This document shows positions 12,162 to 33,623 of a stretch of DNA of 33,623 nt, one piece after another. Made by a program: the position numbers and the translations under genes. Source of the stretch: Candidatus Udaeobacter sp. Its GTDB lineage: Bacteria > Verrucomicrobiota > Verrucomicrobiia > Chthoniobacterales > UBA10450. Positions within the stretch are counted from its first letter, which is position 1; each line of letters starts with the position of its first letter. The DNA lies in assembly GCA_013372845.1 (NCBI GenBank), contig JAALOD010000022.1, positions 1 through 33,623 of the forward strand. Direction: 5' to 3'. A model generated the notes under the pieces. That model saw only the letters and a list, made by a program, of their open reading frames with translations. It was not told the origin of the DNA and searched no databases.

Positions 12162-12905
12162 ATGAGATTCGAAAATCAAGTTGCAATCGTCACCGGCGCG
12201 GGGCGAGGGATTGGCCAAGCTACCGCCCTGCGACTGGCAAATGAGGGAGCGCGGGTCGCGTGCGTGAGTCGCACGGAAGCGAACGCAAAGAACATCGCGA
12301 ACCAGATCAACGCAATTCGCGCCGACGCGGGAAGGGCCTATACGGTCGATGTTGCGGACCATGCAGCCGTACACAAAATCGGTGCTCAAATCCTCGGCGA
12401 TTTTGGCAGGGCCGACATCCTGATTAACAACGCAGGTGTTACCCGAGATGTGCTTGCCATGCGAATGTCGCTTGAGGACTGGGACGCGGTCATTAATACA
12501 AACCTGCGCGGCACCTTTAGTTTTACCCAGTCGATTATCCGCGCCATGATCAAGCAGCGTGGTGGGCGCATCATCAACATCAGTTCGGTAATCGGTTTGA
12601 TGGGCAATGCAGGGCAGACTAATTATGCGGCCAGCAAAGCGGGCGTGATCGGTTTTACCAAGTCCCTTGCCCGCGAGCTGGCGAGTCGCAATATCACTGT
12701 CAACGCTGTGGCCCCGGGATTTATCACGACAGACATGACTGCCGGACTTTCCGAAGAAGTTAAGAATTCCATCCAATCAAAGATTCCTCTTGGCAGAACG
12801 GGCACGCCTGAAGACATCGCAAACGCAGTGGCATTTCTCGCGTCTTCTGAAGCCGGTTATATCACCGGCCAGGTGTTGTGCGTCGACGGCGGAATTGTGA
12901 TGTGA
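12162..12905 (+). CDS. fabG: FabG-type 3-oxoacyl-ACP reductase (short-chain dehydrogenase)
   Basis: NADPH-dependent reductase of the classical SDR fold, 247 residues from ATG 12162. The cofactor loop TGAGRGIG is at 11-18, the NNAG motif at 89-92, and the catalytic triad is S142, Y155, K159 in SSVIGLMGNAGQTNYAASK. The ending GQVLCVDGGIVM is typical of FabG. The usual acpP-fabF neighbours are missing. Instead it points towards a minus-strand cluster with two ApeI/ApeP-like dehydratases, an acyltransferase, a methyltransferase and a sulfotransferase. It may be the main fatty acid FabG or a pathway-specific reductase (ApeQ-like). The symbol reflects fold and activity, not a proven role. Confidence 0.9.
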   Translation: MRFENQVAIVTGAGRGIGQATALRLANEGARVACVSRTEANAKNIANQINAIRADAGRAYTVDVADHAAVHKIGAQILGDFGRADILINNAGVTRDVLAMRMSLEDWDAVINTNLRGTFSFTQSIIRAMIKQRGGRIINISSVIGLMGNAGQTNYAASKAGVIGFTKSLARELASRNITVNAVAPGFITTDMTAGLSEEVKNSIQSKIPLGRTGTPEDIANAVAFLASSEAGYITGQVLCVDGGIVM

Positions 12906-12962
12906 TGCGCTTACCGTGAAATTCTGCAGCGACGACTCTGAAATTGAGATGGCACCAGTCAC

Positions 12963-13406
12963 TTACGTGCGCTGTATGATGGTAATGCGCCCATTCGCTA
13001 ACAGAATATTGCCGGCTAAAACGCAGCATTCATAAATTGTGTTGGCACCGTCACCAAACAGGCGATTCGCACAAATCCGAAGCGGTGATGCGATGTCATC
13101 CAGACGCGCCGCATGCAAGTGCGCGTCCCGCAAGGCAGCCAGGTAGCCAGGCGGTGCGATCTCACCTACCGAGCGGGCCCGCAAGCCGCCGTGGACTGCC
13201 GCCGCTTGCGCGCCGTATTCGAAAGCGTGCAGAGCAGATAAACGTCCATCGCGGCGTAGTGGATTAGCGGGGTCACGATGCGTGTTAGTGCCGCATGTAA
13301 TCGATCGATCATCCCACTGAGTTACCTCATCCAACAAACACATGAGACCGGAGTGGGGAATCAATGTGCGAATTTCTGCTTTGTTAATCGTCGTGCCGTT
13401 AGTCAT
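12963..13406 (-). CDS. ApeP-like hotdog-fold 3-hydroxyacyl-ACP dehydratase
   Basis: 147 residues. IPHSGLMCLLDEVTQWD at the start, then HRDPANPLRRDGRLSALHAFEYGAQAAAVHGG, match the ApeP-type dehydratases of aryl polyene clusters, in which a NPLR..G.L segment leads into the hotdog helix E-Y-x-A-Q-A-x-A-x-HG. Such enzymes dehydrate 3-hydroxyacyl chains during polyene or unusual fatty acid synthesis, often with a second hotdog protein; one lies at 15661. It is convergent with fabG (57-base gap) and follows the acyltransferase gene on the minus strand after 123 bases. Family assignment is from remembered motif pattern. Confidence 0.75.
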   Translation of the reverse strand: MTNGTTINKAEIRTLIPHSGLMCLLDEVTQWDDRSITCGTNTHRDPANPLRRDGRLSALHAFEYGAQAAAVHGGLRARSVGEIAPPGYLAALRDAHLHAARLDDIASPLRICANRLFGDGANTIYECCVLAGNILLANGRITIIQRT

Positions 13407-13448
13407 TGTGCACGGTCGGTAAGATCCCAGAACTGGTTAATGTCCACG

Positions 13449-13507
13449 AAACACACGAAAGACTCTATGTTTTCCACTAAGACATTTTGGTCTGTATTCG
13501 CGTGTTT
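13449..13507. repeat. imperfect inverted repeat between acyltransferase and ApeP-like genes
   Basis: AAACACACGAA (13449-13459) pairs with TTCGCGTGTTT (13497-13507) over 11 bp with one mismatch, leaving a 37-base spacer. CCACGAAACACACGAAA-type sequence is a common intergenic motif in environmental bacterial genomes. It lies in the only sizeable gap of the minus-strand lipid cluster. Confidence 0.4.
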
Positions 13508-13529
13508 AGCGGGTTAGTTGCCTTCCGAC

Positions 13530-14450
13530 TTAATCCCAAAATGGATAAAAATTAAACCAGTTGTAAGGCGCACGGCGCGCGTAATACTCCAGGCGCTCGG
13601 CGTAGCGCTGCATCCACAGCTGGATCTCTTCAGCTCGGCGATCGCGATCCAAAGTGATCTCATCGGCAAAATGTTCGAAGTAAATTTCGTAACGGTTCCC
13701 GCCGCGGTAGAGACCGAAAAACAAAATAACGGGACGATGCGTCATGGCGGCAAGCACAATTGGGCCGACCGGGAACGCCGCTGGCCGGCCAAGGAATTGG
13801 CATTGGGCTGTCTTACCATCGTTCGACACGCGGTCGCCGAGCGTGCCGACGAAGAATCCCGCATCCAAACTTTCCTTAACTGTCAGCAAAGTATCCATCC
13901 GATCCGGCGCGATTACCGTGCTGGCGATCACAGGGTTCAATGCATCCAGAAAACGGGTGATATTTTGGTTGTGGGTTGCATCCATCAAAACCTTGAGCGG
14001 AAACTTTCCCTGCATCACGCCCAGAGCTCGCAATACCTCGAAACTGCCCAAGTGTGAGCCCAACAGAACGCAACCCTTTCCGCTTTCCATTCGGCCGTGC
14101 AGGATTTCTTTGCCGTGAAGCTTTACGTCAAAGCGCTGGAACTCACCGCGCAACAGGTAAACGCGATCCAGAATGGTCGCGGCGAAGCAATGAAAATGGC
14201 GAGACACATGCCACCAGTGGGCGGGGTAACCGCGCATTTGCTTAAGGTATTCGTACGAAGTTCGGCGGGCCGCGCATGCAGTCATTACATAATAGGCTGT
14301 GATCGGATATAACAGCAGCCTTGCCGCTAAACGCCCGATGTGCGTCGCGATCCAGGCGATCAATTGCAGCGAAGCGAGTGTGCCGCGTTCCGGCAAGCCC
14401 GTCCAACGCAATGTCTCCGAGGTTTTCGTCTCCAAAACGTCCGAGGTCAT
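13530..14450 (-). CDS. HtrB/LpxL-family lipid acyltransferase
   Basis: 306 residues from ATG 14450, whose ATGA overlaps the methyltransferase stop. The frame is open 43 codons further but lies inside that gene. A hydrophobic segment at about 25-60 suggests membrane attachment. The acyltransferase signature is H133-x4-E138 in LLGSHLGSFEVLRAL, and the C-terminal YNWFNFYPFWD is typical of the Lip_A_acyltrans family. Members add acyl chains to lipid A precursors or other lipids; aryl polyene clusters carry a member thought to move the polyene onto a lipid anchor. In this context I favour acylation with the product of the surrounding dehydratases, an inference. Confidence 0.85.
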   Translation of the reverse strand: MTSDVLETKTSETLRWTGLPERGTLASLQLIAWIATHIGRLAARLLLYPITAYYVMTACAARRTSYEYLKQMRGYPAHWWHVSRHFHCFAATILDRVYLLRGEFQRFDVKLHGKEILHGRMESGKGCVLLGSHLGSFEVLRALGVMQGKFPLKVLMDATHNQNITRFLDALNPVIASTVIAPDRMDTLLTVKESLDAGFFVGTLGDRVSNDGKTAQCQFLGRPAAFPVGPIVLAAMTHRPVILFFGLYRGGNRYEIYFEHFADEITLDRDRRAEEIQLWMQRYAERLEYYARRAPYNWFNFYPFWD

Positions 14451-15664
14451 TTGCCGGGCGCGACGTTTTGTCCGCAGATCGCGCCAGTGAAAAAGTGTGG
14501 GTAGATCTCGCGAATACGATCGATGTTCGGCGCAACTTCGGCGCGCTGAAAGCCTGCGCGAGTAAACGCGCGCCGCCAATGCTCTGCAGTTAGAAACCCT
14601 GGATTCGGGCGAATCTCTGGATCTGTCTGGACGTTGGTAAAGCTCTCAAGAATCTGAAACATCAGTTCAGGGTAGATTGGCTGATTGAAATAGGGTCGCA
14701 GGCATTCGCCGATCACGAGCCAGCCGTCGCTGGCCAGAGCCGAGCGTGCTTCGTTCAAGCTGAACAAGAGATCCCTGGAGATATGCATGACGTTAACAGC
14801 GTATATCAGATCGAATTCACCCGGGTTGATGCCTTGAGTGCTCCAAGGCAAATCGAGATTGAGCGCACCCCATTCAAGCGGAAGATCAGGATATTGCCTT
14901 GCGAGTTTGCGCTGGCCGCATCGCAGGAAGAACGCGTTCGGCTCTGTGATGAGATAACGTTCTACCCGCGCCAAGAGCCCGCGTTCATCAAACAAGCGCA
15001 ACAAAATTTCGCTGGCGCTGCCGGGGCCCGCGCCGACTTCTAAAATCCGAAGCGTGCGTTGATTGGAAACGCGCTCAGCGGCGAGTGCGGCGCCGACCCA
15101 GTTATTCACGGCATAGCTTAGATTGTCATTGTGAAAATAATTCAGCCATAGGGGCACGCCTTGCGGACCGAGCAAATTGCGATCACCACTTTGTTCGCCA
15201 TTGGCGACAGCAGGATAGAGGCTCGCGGCGTGATCCAGTAAAGCCAAAGTCGCCGCGTTCGCAGGATCGATTTGCAGACCTGTTGCACGCAGGCTTTCGA
15301 GATCCGGTTTCCGCAACGTGTGGCGCAGATGGTAAAGGCGAGCGTTCGCGTCGGTCCGGGCCTCGACACAATCGATTTCTACCAGACGTTCCAGGATCCA
15401 ATGTAAGGCGAACTTGAAAGAGGGCTGAAACGAAAGGAGACGACACAAGTCATCGACCGATCGCCATTGGCTGAGGTGATCGATCACGTTCAAGCGACGC
15501 GCCAGATCGATAGCCATGTCGACGCTGTAACGCTCCAATAGTTCGATGCTTTGATACAGTCGTTCACTGAACACCGGCGGTGGATATTCCTTCAAGTATT
15601 CGGCCAGGCGCGGATCGCTTGGTTGTACCTTAAACGGCGGCGCGTCGGAGAGTGGCGCGTTCAC
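14447..15664 (-). CDS. SAM-dependent methyltransferase, polyketide-cluster type
   Basis: 405 residues starting at GTG 15664, which overlaps the upstream hotdog gene stop as GTGA. The N-terminal ~190 residues are helical (SVDMAIDLARRLNVIDHL, LCRLLSFQPSFKFALHWIL), like a winged-helix or dimerisation region. A class I methyltransferase fold follows: motif I is ILEVGAGPGSASE (about 207-219), the acidic loop is LITEPN, and FDLIYAVNVMHIS gives motif IV/post. It resembles methyltransferase domains in polyketide and fatty-acid-like pathways, so it may methylate a carbon or oxygen of the chain. The 4-base overlaps on both sides show tight translational coupling with the dehydratase and acyltransferase genes. 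Confidence 0.85.
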   Translation of the reverse strand: MNAPLSDAPPFKVQPSDPRLAEYLKEYPPPVFSERLYQSIELLERYSVDMAIDLARRLNVIDHLSQWRSVDDLCRLLSFQPSFKFALHWILERLVEIDCVEARTDANARLYHLRHTLRKPDLESLRATGLQIDPANAATLALLDHAASLYPAVANGEQSGDRNLLGPQGVPLWLNYFHNDNLSYAVNNWVGAALAAERVSNQRTLRILEVGAGPGSASEILLRLFDERGLLARVERYLITEPNAFFLRCGQRKLARQYPDLPLEWGALNLDLPWSTQGINPGEFDLIYAVNVMHISRDLLFSLNEARSALASDGWLVIGECLRPYFNQPIYPELMFQILESFTNVQTDPEIRPNPGFLTAEHWRRAFTRAGFQRAEVAPNIDRIREIYPHFFTGAICGQNVAPGK

Positions 15665-15981
15665 GAAGTCACCTTTGTCCCGAAATAAATTTCAAGTTGG
15701 CCTTCAACCATTGCGTGGCCTTCTATTCGACAGCAAAAATTGACTCCGGTCGCGTCATCATCGCTCGTGGAAAGGCAGATCGTAAATGGCTGCTCAGGCT
15801 TTAGTGGCTGCAAAAACTTGACCGTGCGGATCGCCGTAAGCTGACAGTCTTTTCGCCAGTCACGCAACGCCGCGAGAACTTCATCGAGAATCAGTACGCC
15901 TGGTACGAGAGGCGCGTCCGGAAAATGTCCGGGCAAGCTGGGATGATCGGCCGTAATCGAGCGGCGTAATTCAAAGGTCAT
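15661..15981 (-). CDS. ApeI-like hotdog-fold 3-hydroxyacyl-ACP dehydratase
   Basis: 106-residue single hotdog domain. HPSLPGHFPDAPLVPGVLILDEV (residues 13-35) is the FabZ/ApeI active-site region, with probable catalytic H19 in GHFP; the FabZ glutamate position falls on D33 or E34. It is shorter than FabZ (about 150), matching ApeI-type partners. Its stop overlaps the methyltransferase GTG start. Two hotdog proteins of different types in one cluster (this and 12963-13406) is the pattern seen in aryl polyene loci. Confidence 0.78.
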   Translation of the reverse strand: MTFELRRSITADHPSLPGHFPDAPLVPGVLILDEVLAALRDWRKDCQLTAIRTVKFLQPLKPEQPFTICLSTSDDDATGVNFCCRIEGHAMVEGQLEIYFGTKVTS

Positions 15982-16045
15982 GTCAGCGAAGTGTTCCTCA
16001 TGCCATTAGTTCCAGCAACTCGACGCTCTTGTAGAGTTGTTGACC

Positions 16046-17332
16046 CTACCTCTTAACCAGCTTTTCCGCTCGCTCGCCAGACGCATGTTTCCTGCGCGCA
16101 ACCAGACCGAACCGGTCGCAATAGGCTGCGAATCGAGCGGCGCTCTCCGCTTCTTGCACGCCGAACTGTGAGAGATCGTACCGATGAAGCCCATTTCGTT
16201 CCTGCAACTGGCTTCCCAGTGCCCGGCGCATCCGTTGCCCTACTTTCGCGGACAACGACCAACCGAAGTGTGTATAAATTCGTCGCACCACCGCGAGAGG
16301 ATCGCGACGGATCTCGGCATAATCCACGTCGCAAATGCGACGCTCTGCCAATCGATCTCGTTCCCGCAAGAATCTATCCAGCGTGTTCGACCAATAATCG
16401 ATCGCCTCGCGGCAAACAGTGAGTGGATCGACCGCGTCGCTAAACACACGGCGGAGGATCGTTATCAAACTCGATACTGAAGTCATGGCATCGAGTGGCG
16501 CTCGATGGGTTTGGACAAAAAGCGCGTCAGGGTAAACAGCCAGCAGACTTGGCGAGGCAAACATGTGCGTGGGGGCTTTGAGCACCCAACGCCGCGCGTT
16601 GTGCCGGACCTGCAGATGTTGAAGAAAACGGCGGTGATACTCGTATACCGGTCGCAAATCCTGGCGAAAGAACCAGGCCCGATACGAAGGGACATAATAC
16701 ATCGCATCGAACTGGTCACTCATGAACGTCGGCGCCATGAGACTGACACATTCTTGCGGAAGCTCTGCACCAACGGGGTGCACCTGGCGAAATGTGGGCG
16801 CCAGCCAGTTGAAGCAATTACAACTGCTAATTGCCCGTTGAATTCGCCGCTTCTCATTATCGCTAGTAGGTGGGGATGGCGTCATGACTTCCCACGTGAG
16901 GGGAACTCGGTGCTCGGGATCTAAGGCGAGCAAGGTGTGCAATACCGTCGTACCGCTGCGGGGCAAACCGACGATGAAGAGCGGTTCGCGAATCTCCTGT
17001 CGCGCAATGCTTGGATACGCCTTCCGATCTCGTTGTATGAACAAACGTGAACACAATATGCGTACGAGATCTGCCCGAAGGACGGTTCTTCCGATCAGGT
17101 TAAGCTGGGCCTCGCGCTGGCAGGAATCGAGTAATCGCGAGAGACCCTCAAAAAAGTCACCTCTTCCAAAATCATCGAGGCCGGAACGGCGCTTTGCTGT
17201 CTCGATTAAATCAACCGCTCGGATGCGAGTCCGCGGAATTCGGCTTTTGTCCAGCAAGGTGCCACAGCCATTGATCAGCCGCACGGGTAATATCGGGCGA
17301 GTTTGATCCAGAGTCGTAGCGGAGGAATTCAT
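16046..17332 (-). CDS. sulfotransferase family protein
   Basis: PAPS-dependent sulfotransferase, 428 residues from ATG 17332; TTG 17371 is an alternative with no ribosome-binding site. Residues 122-129, GLPRSGTT, form the 5'-phosphosulfate loop. A likely 3'-phosphate region follows in the middle (PDALFVQTHRAPLDAMTSVSSL), where the R...S pattern binds the 3' phosphate. The N-terminal ~110 residues are a helical domain with Arg/Lys-rich stretches, seen in many bacterial lipid or polyketide sulfotransferases. It lies 64 bases upstream of the ApeI-like gene on the same strand and would be the first gene of the cluster. Sulfation of a lipid product is inference from context. Confidence 0.85.
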   Translation of the reverse strand: MNSSATTLDQTRPILPVRLINGCGTLLDKSRIPRTRIRAVDLIETAKRRSGLDDFGRGDFFEGLSRLLDSCQREAQLNLIGRTVLRADLVRILCSRLFIQRDRKAYPSIARQEIREPLFIVGLPRSGTTVLHTLLALDPEHRVPLTWEVMTPSPPTSDNEKRRIQRAISSCNCFNWLAPTFRQVHPVGAELPQECVSLMAPTFMSDQFDAMYYVPSYRAWFFRQDLRPVYEYHRRFLQHLQVRHNARRWVLKAPTHMFASPSLLAVYPDALFVQTHRAPLDAMTSVSSLITILRRVFSDAVDPLTVCREAIDYWSNTLDRFLRERDRLAERRICDVDYAEIRRDPLAVVRRIYTHFGWSLSAKVGQRMRRALGSQLQERNGLHRYDLSQFGVQEAESAARFAAYCDRFGLVARRKHASGERAEKLVKR

Positions 17333-26315: not shown

Positions 26316-26385
26316 GGCTCCATTCGCCCGGCGCAAATAGCAGCTGCATTTGGCGACCGACCGGTCCAGCGTGCGAGTTTATTTC

Positions 26386-27648
26386 ATGAGTATTTACGAC
26401 GACGACGTGTTTCAAATGGCGTGTGACCAATTTCAGGTCATCGCCGATTACCTCAGCATCGATAAGAATGATCGTGAACGGTTGATGTATCCAAAGCGTG
26501 CCATCGCAGTGACCCTGCCGGTCCACATGGATGATGGCAGCACGAGAACTTTTCAGGGCTACCGCGTTCAGCATCATTTGACTCTCGGCCCGACAAAAGG
26601 CGGGACTCGCTTCGCTCCGTCCCTGTCCATGGGCGAAACTGCCGCTCTGGCCATGTGGATGAGCTGGAAATGTGCGCTGTCCAATTTGCCGTACGGCGGG
26701 GCGAAAGGCGGGGTGACGGTGGATCCCGCTAAACTGTCGCGCACTGAGTTGGAGTCGGTTTCGCGCCGTTACATGCAGGAGATGATTCCGTTTGTCGGAC
26801 CGCACACCGACGTAATGGGCCCCGACATGGGCACGAACGAACAGGTCATGGCGTGGTTCATGGATACTTATTCAGTTTACCAAGGCCATTCCGTAAGTGA
26901 AATCGTGACCGGCAAGCCGGTCGCCATAGGCGGAACGGAAGGCCGCCGGGAAGCAACCGGGCGCGGTGTCGTTTACCTGATCGAGCGCGCGATGAACATG
27001 CTTAAAATGGATCCTGAAAAATGCACCGCTATTGTGCAGGGATTCGGCAACGTCGGTTCCGTCGCGGCTCTTTCATTGGCCTATAAGAGTGGCGTCAAAG
27101 TAGTTGGAATTAGCGACGCACACGCAGCGATCTACAATCCAAAAGGAATAGATATCCAGGCCGCCGAACAGCACGTCTTGAAGAAAGGGACGTTACGGGC
27201 GTTCGCTCAGGACAATCATGTCGATCCCAACGAACTCCTCACGATGCCGTGCGACATCCTTGTGCCCGCCGCCGTCGATCGCGTAATTCATGGAAAGAAC
27301 GTCAGTCAACTCAAATGCCGCATCCTCGCCGAAGCGGCCAATGGCCCGACAACACCGGAGGCAGATCTGATTCTTGAAAAACGCTGGGACGAAATCTTTG
27401 TGATCCCGGACATTTTATGTAACGCGGGTGGCGTAATTGTTTCCTACTTCGAATGGGTGCAGGGCTTACAGTCCTACCTCTGGACGGAAATAGAAGTGAC
27501 CGACAAGCTTTTCCGCATCCTGGAACATTCGTTTGCGCAGGTGATCAAACGCGCAAAAGCGCATAAGATTTCTCATCGCACTGCGGCCATGGCCATTGGC
27601 GTCGAGCGTGTTCTAAAAGCTAAAAAGATGCGCGGCCTGTTCCCGTGA
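26386..27648 (+). CDS. Glu/Leu/Phe/Val dehydrogenase, NAD-type glutamate dehydrogenase
   Basis: Oxidative deaminase interconverting glutamate with 2-oxoglutarate and ammonia. 420 residues from ATG 26386, the usual size; TTG 26350 would add 12 residues unlike the family. Substrate and catalytic lysines lie in LGPTKGGTRF (K71), WMSWKCALSN (K95) and PYGGAKGGV (K107). The dinucleotide loop is VQGFGNVGSVAA. Sequence style (MSWKCAL, PDMGTNEQVMAW) is that of the hexameric NAD or dual-cofactor class (GudB/RocG-like), unlike the NADP-type enzyme at 32.2-33.6 kb. It may serve glutamate catabolism. Confidence 0.92.
   Translation: MSIYDDDVFQMACDQFQVIADYLSIDKNDRERLMYPKRAIAVTLPVHMDDGSTRTFQGYRVQHHLTLGPTKGGTRFAPSLSMGETAALAMWMSWKCALSNLPYGGAKGGVTVDPAKLSRTELESVSRRYMQEMIPFVGPHTDVMGPDMGTNEQVMAWFMDTYSVYQGHSVSEIVTGKPVAIGGTEGRREATGRGVVYLIERAMNMLKMDPEKCTAIVQGFGNVGSVAALSLAYKSGVKVVGISDAHAAIYNPKGIDIQAAEQHVLKKGTLRAFAQDNHVDPNELLTMPCDILVPAAVDRVIHGKNVSQLKCRILAEAANGPTTPEADLILEKRWDEIFVIPDILCNAGGVIVSYFEWVQGLQSYLWTEIEVTDKLFRILEHSFAQVIKRAKAHKISHRTAAMAIGVERVLKAKKMRGLFP

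Positions 27649-32225: not shown

Positions 32226-33623
<1,398 letters not shown>

Follow-up and report, generated by a model that had tools for sequence, protein, structure and literature searches.

A reduced aryl polyene-type gene cassette with a stand-alone C-methyltransferase in Candidatus Udaeobacter, conserved in one verrucomicrobial family and likely acquired from Proteobacteria

Gene content of the locus

The window (the whole stretch of DNA analysed, 33,623 nucleotides) belongs to contig JAALOD010000022.1 of Candidatus Udaeobacter sp. (GCA_013372845.1), from a genome (G000) of 3.22 Mb in 145 contigs that is 83% complete. Our subject is a block of four minus-strand genes in this window, hdI-MT-AT-hdP (names coined in this analysis, as is ST below), which is a real, conserved and reduced aryl polyene (APE)-type set with a C-methyltransferase. 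The first gene of this cassette, hdI (15661-15981), encodes a single-hotdog ApeI/FabZ-like dehydratase of 106 amino acids, and is followed by MT (14447-15664, GTG start), which encodes a stand-alone polyketide synthase (PKS)-type C-methyltransferase of 405 amino acids, by AT (13530-14450), an acyltransferase gene of the lysophospholipid acyltransferase (LPLAT)/HtrB-like kind, and by hdP (12963-13406), which encodes an ApeP-like hotdog protein of 147 amino acids. AT was read from an ATG, and a longer reading is possible from a TTG at 14579. AT and hdP are separated by 123 bp. On the same strand, 64 bp upstream of hdI, lies a sulfotransferase gene (ST, 16046-17332), and on the plus strand fabG (12162-12905), for a FabG-type ketoreductase, converges on hdP with a gap of 57 bp.

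An earlier note on this DNA, made from the sequence alone, had reported these six open reading frames (ORFs), with GTGA and ATGA overlaps and a reductase gene converging on the end of the set. All six are present, the overlaps lie at hdI/MT (GTGA) and MT/AT (ATGA), and the converging gene is fabG. These ORFs are not chance ones, because dN/dS against the orthologues at locus L069 (one pair per gene) ranges from 0.07 (fabG) to 0.22 (hdI). Pfam and NCBIfam searches are the basis of the family assignments. Among the alignments, A1 omits L070 and L072 of 18 loci, A2 omits L072 and L087 of 20, A3 omits L070 and L083 of 19, A5 omits L071 of 15, and A4 keeps all 18, L078 and L087 having been excluded earlier for in-frame stops.

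The two hotdog proteins

In Pfam, hdI matches FabA at 27.2 bits (cut-off 23) and the ApeI-like family at 19.8 bits, below the cut-off of 28.5, and the sole match of hdP is to the ApeP-like family at 14 bits, below the cut-off of 27. Profile comparisons with PDB place both proteins further. The hdI profile (19 rows) matches FabZ at 7e-8 and 6qsr_A at 6e-6, and the hdP profile (17 rows) matches 6qsr_B (6.1e-7), followed by a FabZ (0.003) and a ribosomal protein (0.36). The structure 6qsr is the ApeI:ApeP pair of Xenorhabdus. The locus thus encodes two distinct hotdogs of the ApeI and ApeP kind, as the earlier note had proposed, although the matches to the Pfam ApeI-like and ApeP-like models stay below their cut-offs.

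In hdI, His19 stands in a GHFP motif and Asp33/Glu34 on the helix, His19 and Glu34 being invariant in the alignment and Asp33 present in 18 of 19 rows. In hdP there is no GHFP-type His, and Arg55 takes the place of the His of the GHLPG motif of 6qsr_B, while Glu63 shares a column with the Glu of FabZ and 6qsr_B in the profile alignment. Since the Glu is aligned and the His replaced in hdP, we infer that the two proteins may form a heterodimer with a composite active site of His19 from hdI and Glu63 from hdP. A second FabA-family match in the genome, in a 441-amino-acid frame on contig C124, scores 115.5 bits against 23.1 for hdI, which rules out the cassette hotdog as the housekeeping FabZ; because this separate and stronger FabZ exists, hdI is an extra dehydratase.

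Methyltransferase and acyltransferase

MT matches Methyltransf_12 in Pfam (1.3e-8), and its profile matches in PDB the methyltransferases of CurJ (9.7e-28, over 296 profile positions), DisA (2e-19), AprA MT2 (1e-17) and 7dmb (5.8e-11), the last of which we take to be AmxMT1. Two residues, His294 and Glu320, are invariant in 19 of 19 rows and share alignment columns with one His and one Glu in the CurJ C-methyltransferase, which would be its catalytic dyad. By sequence, MT therefore belongs to the PKS C-methyltransferases, including the conserved His and Glu of that family; PMC9821293 describes a His-Glu dyad and a Tyr for such enzymes. AT matches Lip_A_acyltrans in Pfam (31.7 bits, 1.2e-7, cut-off 22.3).

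Conservation in Verrucomicrobia

A scan of genome contigs for hdP confirmed 392 relatives, of which the best 80 were kept: 37 from Verrucomicrobiota, 42 from Pseudomonadota and one from another bacterium. Statements below on named verrucomicrobial loci and other hdP loci refer to these 80. The 37 named verrucomicrobial loci overlap the genomes searched separately (G numbers), and two of them (L148, L149) come from one metagenome-assembled genome (MAG), isolate AV71, which points to a duplication or a mixed bin. Counting loci with enough contig, AT-hdP is kept in 32/32 and hdI-MT-AT in 25/26, in line with the earlier note's placing of acyltransferase and methyltransferase in one set with the hotdogs; fabG converges within 3.5 kb in 34/35, and ST lies upstream in 21/23. 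Gene order was also read in 20 fetched relatives.

A search of 197 order genomes with hdP (E up to 1e-5) gave matches in 32, all of one family (f1, very probably Candidatus Udaeobacter and kin), and in none outside it. MT orthologues (at least 53% identity, whole or partial) occur in 34 of the 197, comprising all 32 hdP genomes and two with MT only (G179, G193), and the remaining MT matches lie within open frames of 1136-2839 codons. Within a single verrucomicrobial family, the block hdI-MT-AT-hdP is thus a conserved unit that evolves under purifying selection. A permuted form, AT-hdP-hdI-MT, occurs at another site in G184 (L082:101-3057), and G107 is probably permuted likewise, its two halves ending two contigs (L087, L123).

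Proteobacterial relatives and origin of the block

At 14 proteobacterial loci (L170-L181, L183, L184), hdP is 55-64% identical to a protein encoded in an APE/xanthomonadin-type cluster. For example, L184 comprises genes for AMP-ligase, hdI, chorismatase, acyl carrier protein (ACP), AT, hdP, MMPL exporter, ketosynthase (KS) and ketoreductase (KR); in the proteobacterial clusters, ligase, chorismatase FkbO/Hyg5, MMPL and AT have Pfam support. An MT match was found in 5 of 16 such genomes, stand-alone in G205, G207, G210 and G214 and within a 2133-codon frame in G206, and none was found in the other 11 searched. In G210, where the cluster is split over two contigs, the order is AMP-ligase-hdI-MT (L259) and MT end-chorismatase-ACP-AT-hdP-MMPL-KS-KR (L177); the order at L181 differs, with MT-AMP-ligase-hdI. 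The Udaeobacter block is therefore colinear with full proteobacterial clusters, hdI-MT-AT-hdP being retained and the rest omitted.

Compared with its counterparts in 11 Competibacteraceae-like clusters, AT shows 54-58% identity. In an AT tree of 66 rows (a quick tree with midpoint root and support only from the Shimodaira-Hasegawa-like approximate likelihood ratio test, SH-aLRT), Verrucomicrobiota form one clade (SH-aLRT 100), sister to the 11 Competibacteraceae-like rows (SH-aLRT 96), with other Proteobacteria outside. The hdP tree, built on few columns, neither supports nor contradicts a single verrucomicrobial clade (2 changes). Because hdP is confined to f1 within the order and is most closely related, beyond that family, to proteobacterial proteins, the likely source of the block is a proteobacterial cluster similar to the Competibacteraceae ones. 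Since the AT root is a midpoint one, the direction, which would be from Proteobacteria to Verrucomicrobiota, rests on the narrow verrucomicrobial spread and the complete proteobacterial clusters.

Sulfotransferase, fabG and the insertion site

ST matches Sulfotransfer_3 (PF13469) at 5.8e-42. The fabG product matches adh_short_C2 at 9e-68 in Pfam and TIGR01830 at 332 bits in NCBIfam (cut-off 298); it scores as an ordinary fatty-acid FabG, and would be an older neighbour of the block that possibly serves as a shared ketoreductase. The earlier note had counted the sulfotransferase as a cluster member. ST is indeed present in 30 of the 32 hdP genomes, yet it occurs in 41 of the 197 order genomes (E up to 1e-60), of which 11 have no hdP. 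The two hdP genomes without ST are G184 and G131, the block contig of the latter being cut.

We read nine f1 loci where the block does not follow ST (L242-L249, L252). Six of these, all block-free (L242, L243, L244, L245, L246, L248), show pgl-msrA-ST convergent with fabG, with pgl cut by the contig end in L244, an ST-fabG gap of 55-79 bp in L243, L245, L246 and L248, and one intervening gene in L242 and L244. L246 is the locus of G107, whose block lies elsewhere. In L247 and L249 the contigs end 0.9 and 2.1 kb past ST, and in another family (L250, L251) there is no fabG beside ST.

Because the six block-free loci show ST and fabG as convergent neighbours, the two genes are most simply read as old neighbours with the block now between them, and the distribution of the block would favour its insertion over its loss. 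These loci, together with the ST genomes lacking hdP, G184 and G195 (discussed below), speak against ST as a pathway member by descent, and the sulfated product that the earlier note envisaged is left unsupported, ST appearing to be an older neighbour of the block. A gene that looks like a pathway member can thus simply mark the border of a site where a cluster was inserted. Elsewhere in the window, two ORFs (26350-27648 and 32226-33602) appear glutamate dehydrogenase-like by eye from their translations.

Condensing enzymes and acyl carrier protein elsewhere in the genome

No KS, chain-length factor (CLF) or ACP is encoded among the window ORFs of the block. The earlier note's statement that these functions are missing therefore holds for the locus and not for the genome, and its suggestion that condensing enzymes are borrowed from elsewhere has a counterpart in a KS-CLF pair on contig C77 and an ACP on C66. 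With these and a FabF on C81, a genome devoid of condensing enzymes is ruled out. The KS and CLF genes overlap by four bases, and no further pathway gene was seen in their surroundings; the KS retains Cys-His-His and the CLF has none of the three. The ACP gene is followed by a glycosyltransferase gene (by eye), and in four relatives read by eye it was not a neighbour of other pathway genes. A stronger ACP match than that on C66 is also present in the genome. By tblastn, 20 KS-CLF loci of relatives contain no cassette gene, and five of these 20, read by eye, show no pathway genes.

CLF occurs in 145 of the 197 order genomes (1e-10) and ACP in 130 (1e-12), the weakest of these matches being distant. 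Of the 32 hdP genomes, 30 have CLF, 28 have ACP and none lacks both. In a KS tree (quick, no mixture model; some "dispersed" rows are CLFs caught by the KS query, and FabF and L206 form long branches), the closest neighbours of the Udaeobacter KS are the dispersed KSs of the order; it is next nearest to those of the verrucomicrobial clusters L214, L216 and L221, and farther from proteobacterial KSs. KS-CLF as part of the same transfer is thus unsupported, its tree neighbours being verrucomicrobial, and chain building would therefore be carried out by a native core.

In G042, KS-CLF and ACP homologues (L107, L227; CLF 38%, ACP 61%) lie about 115 kb apart on contig C2 (3.8 Mb), and because both loci are on one contig, dispersal there is no effect of assembly. 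A further frame, of 891 amino acids on C135 (L118:4553-7228), appears to combine AMP-ligase, PP-binding and PlsC-like acyltransferase regions, PP-binding by search and the rest by eye; this protein might activate or attach a chain.

Proposed pathway and alternative explanations

Taken together, we consider it somewhat probable that hdI-MT-AT-hdP is an imported, reduced APE/xanthomonadin-type cassette that settled between the older genes ST and fabG and works with type II enzymes encoded elsewhere. As read from sequence, the block would act like the dehydration and attachment steps of APE synthesis. In such a pathway, KS-CLF (C77) would extend a chain on the orphan ACP (C66), FabG would reduce the ketone, and the hdI:hdP heterodimer, with the His from hdI and the Glu from hdP, would dehydrate the product to give conjugated double bonds. 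In at least one round of extension, MT may methylate the beta-ketoacyl-ACP at its alpha carbon, and AT may move the finished polyenyl chain onto a membrane lysolipid or glycolipid. The partnership with KS-CLF and ACP would then yield a C-methylated polyenyl lipid whose synthesis probably does not begin from hydroxybenzoate, the usual starter. The searches returned no AMP-ligase close to the donor type, which makes an aryl head less likely here than for the donor clusters. The fuller proposal, that this is a type II polyene pathway of two histories, with an order-wide dispersed KS-CLF/ACP core and an imported cassette, leading to a non-aryl C-methylated polyenyl membrane lipid with no described counterpart, is possible but tentative.

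Several observations weigh against this interpretation. The Pfam scores of hdP and hdI fall below the ApeP-like and ApeI-like cut-offs, and MT is stopped or split in some MAGs (G107, G138, G145, G147 and G186), by error or decay. In G195, of the same genus, no fabG lies within 8 kb beyond ST (L252), the block and fabG being on another contig (L079), an arrangement that is a rearrangement. In 26 genus genomes (incomplete ones), AMP-ligase gave generic matches in 25, the best at 54.6 bits with 29-30% identity, and an ApeH-like query in the window's own genome gave 38 bits over positions 315-430; MMPL exporter gave weak matches in 6 of the 26, the best at 31.7 bits and 27%. Cassette and KS-CLF were never found together in 37 named cassette loci and 20 KS-CLF loci, and since so many genomes of the order have CLF and ACP, their presence is no proof that they serve the cassette.

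The same breadth of CLF and ACP, mostly in cassette-free genomes, favours an explanation in which the cassette modifies ordinary fatty acids: housekeeping FabF and AcpP would supply a methyl-branched, partly unsaturated acid, AT would transfer it to lipid A or phospholipid, and KS-CLF and the orphan ACP would serve some other order-wide pathway. The lipid A acyltransferase type of AT, the presence of FabF and a stronger ACP match, and the generic AMP-ligase matches agree with it. However, the same genes in proteobacterial clusters are accompanied by their own KS and ACP in an APE-type layout, and two further hotdogs are retained although FabZ is already present, so that we regard this explanation as unlikely. 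Quite improbable is a single pathway of all six genes, ST included, to a sulfated methylated polyene lipid; the position of ST just upstream on the same strand, kept in most named loci, and its presence in nearly all hdP genomes speak for it, whereas the block-free ST-fabG pairs, the ST genomes without hdP, the block without ST in G184, the separate contigs of G195 and the absence of ST by tblastn from the 43 non-verrucomicrobial hdP loci speak against.

A different partner, to which we give little credence, would be a further FabF-like KS whose gene overlaps that of a Polyketide_cyc protein, the product then being cyclised. This KS, of which 18 of the 31 genus genomes have a full-length copy, is another point against KS-CLF as partner, and it overlaps or adjoins a cyclase-like protein in all four loci read (L263:2771-4596, L262, L264, L265), Pfam assigning PF03364 to the one tested (L263). 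However, the search did not find it in the 83% complete genome of the window, and it does not lie near the cassette in the loci read.

The preferred reading, of an imported cassette served by a native core, suggests that selection can maintain a polyketide cluster of which little more than the enzymes for dehydration, methylation and transfer is left, presumably because these join a host core encoded elsewhere. If it is true, Ca. Udaeobacter, a dominant uncultured soil group, has an undescribed membrane lipid, made by a split pathway whose core and cassette are not neighbours and which is therefore easily missed by cluster-based genome mining.

Comparison with known systems

Our literature searches, judged mostly from result lists, returned no description of an hdI-MT-AT-hdP cassette; for a Ca. 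Udaeobacter MAG, PMC7343977 reports arylpolyene and ladderane clusters as weak antiSMASH calls, without a locus in the text read. Aryl polyene and xanthomonadin clusters (L174, L177 with L259, L184, E. coli ape, Azoarcus arc) likewise have two hotdogs and an LPLAT acyltransferase, and some proteobacterial APE-type clusters share with the block both the stand-alone MT and the order of the genes. PMC8253772 gives the gene table and pathway for E. coli ape, PMC3949708 lists the arc genes at two sites on the chromosome, and PMC8358021 treats APE ketosynthases and the ishigamide KS-CLF. By contrast with these clusters, the block has no AMP-ligase, ACP, exporter, KR or KS of its own and no chorismatase among the window ORFs (the genus genomes were not searched for the latter), and the KS of the genome is of a different, verrucomicrobial lineage. 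For want of KS/ACP, ligase and exporter, the block is thus not a full APE cluster.

Closer to the putative core are the KS-CLF-ACP clusters L214, L216 and L221 from other families of the same order, whose KSs are the nearest to that of Udaeobacter among clustered ones. There, KS, CLF and ACP stand beside LPLAT-like, hotdog, MMPL-like and halogenase-like genes (by eye, the hotdogs of L214 and L221 by Pfam), clustered rather than dispersed as in Udaeobacter, and without hdP, as everywhere outside f1. Outside f1, MT is matched by domains within large proteins, unlike the stand-alone MT of Udaeobacter. A single-domain C-methyltransferase is likewise known from anammox type II clusters, where AmxMT1 binds ACP and has a His-Glu dyad, as described in PMC9821293; that enzyme belongs to the pathway of the ladderane loci, and its dyad, H304-E308, is spaced differently from H294 and E320 of MT.

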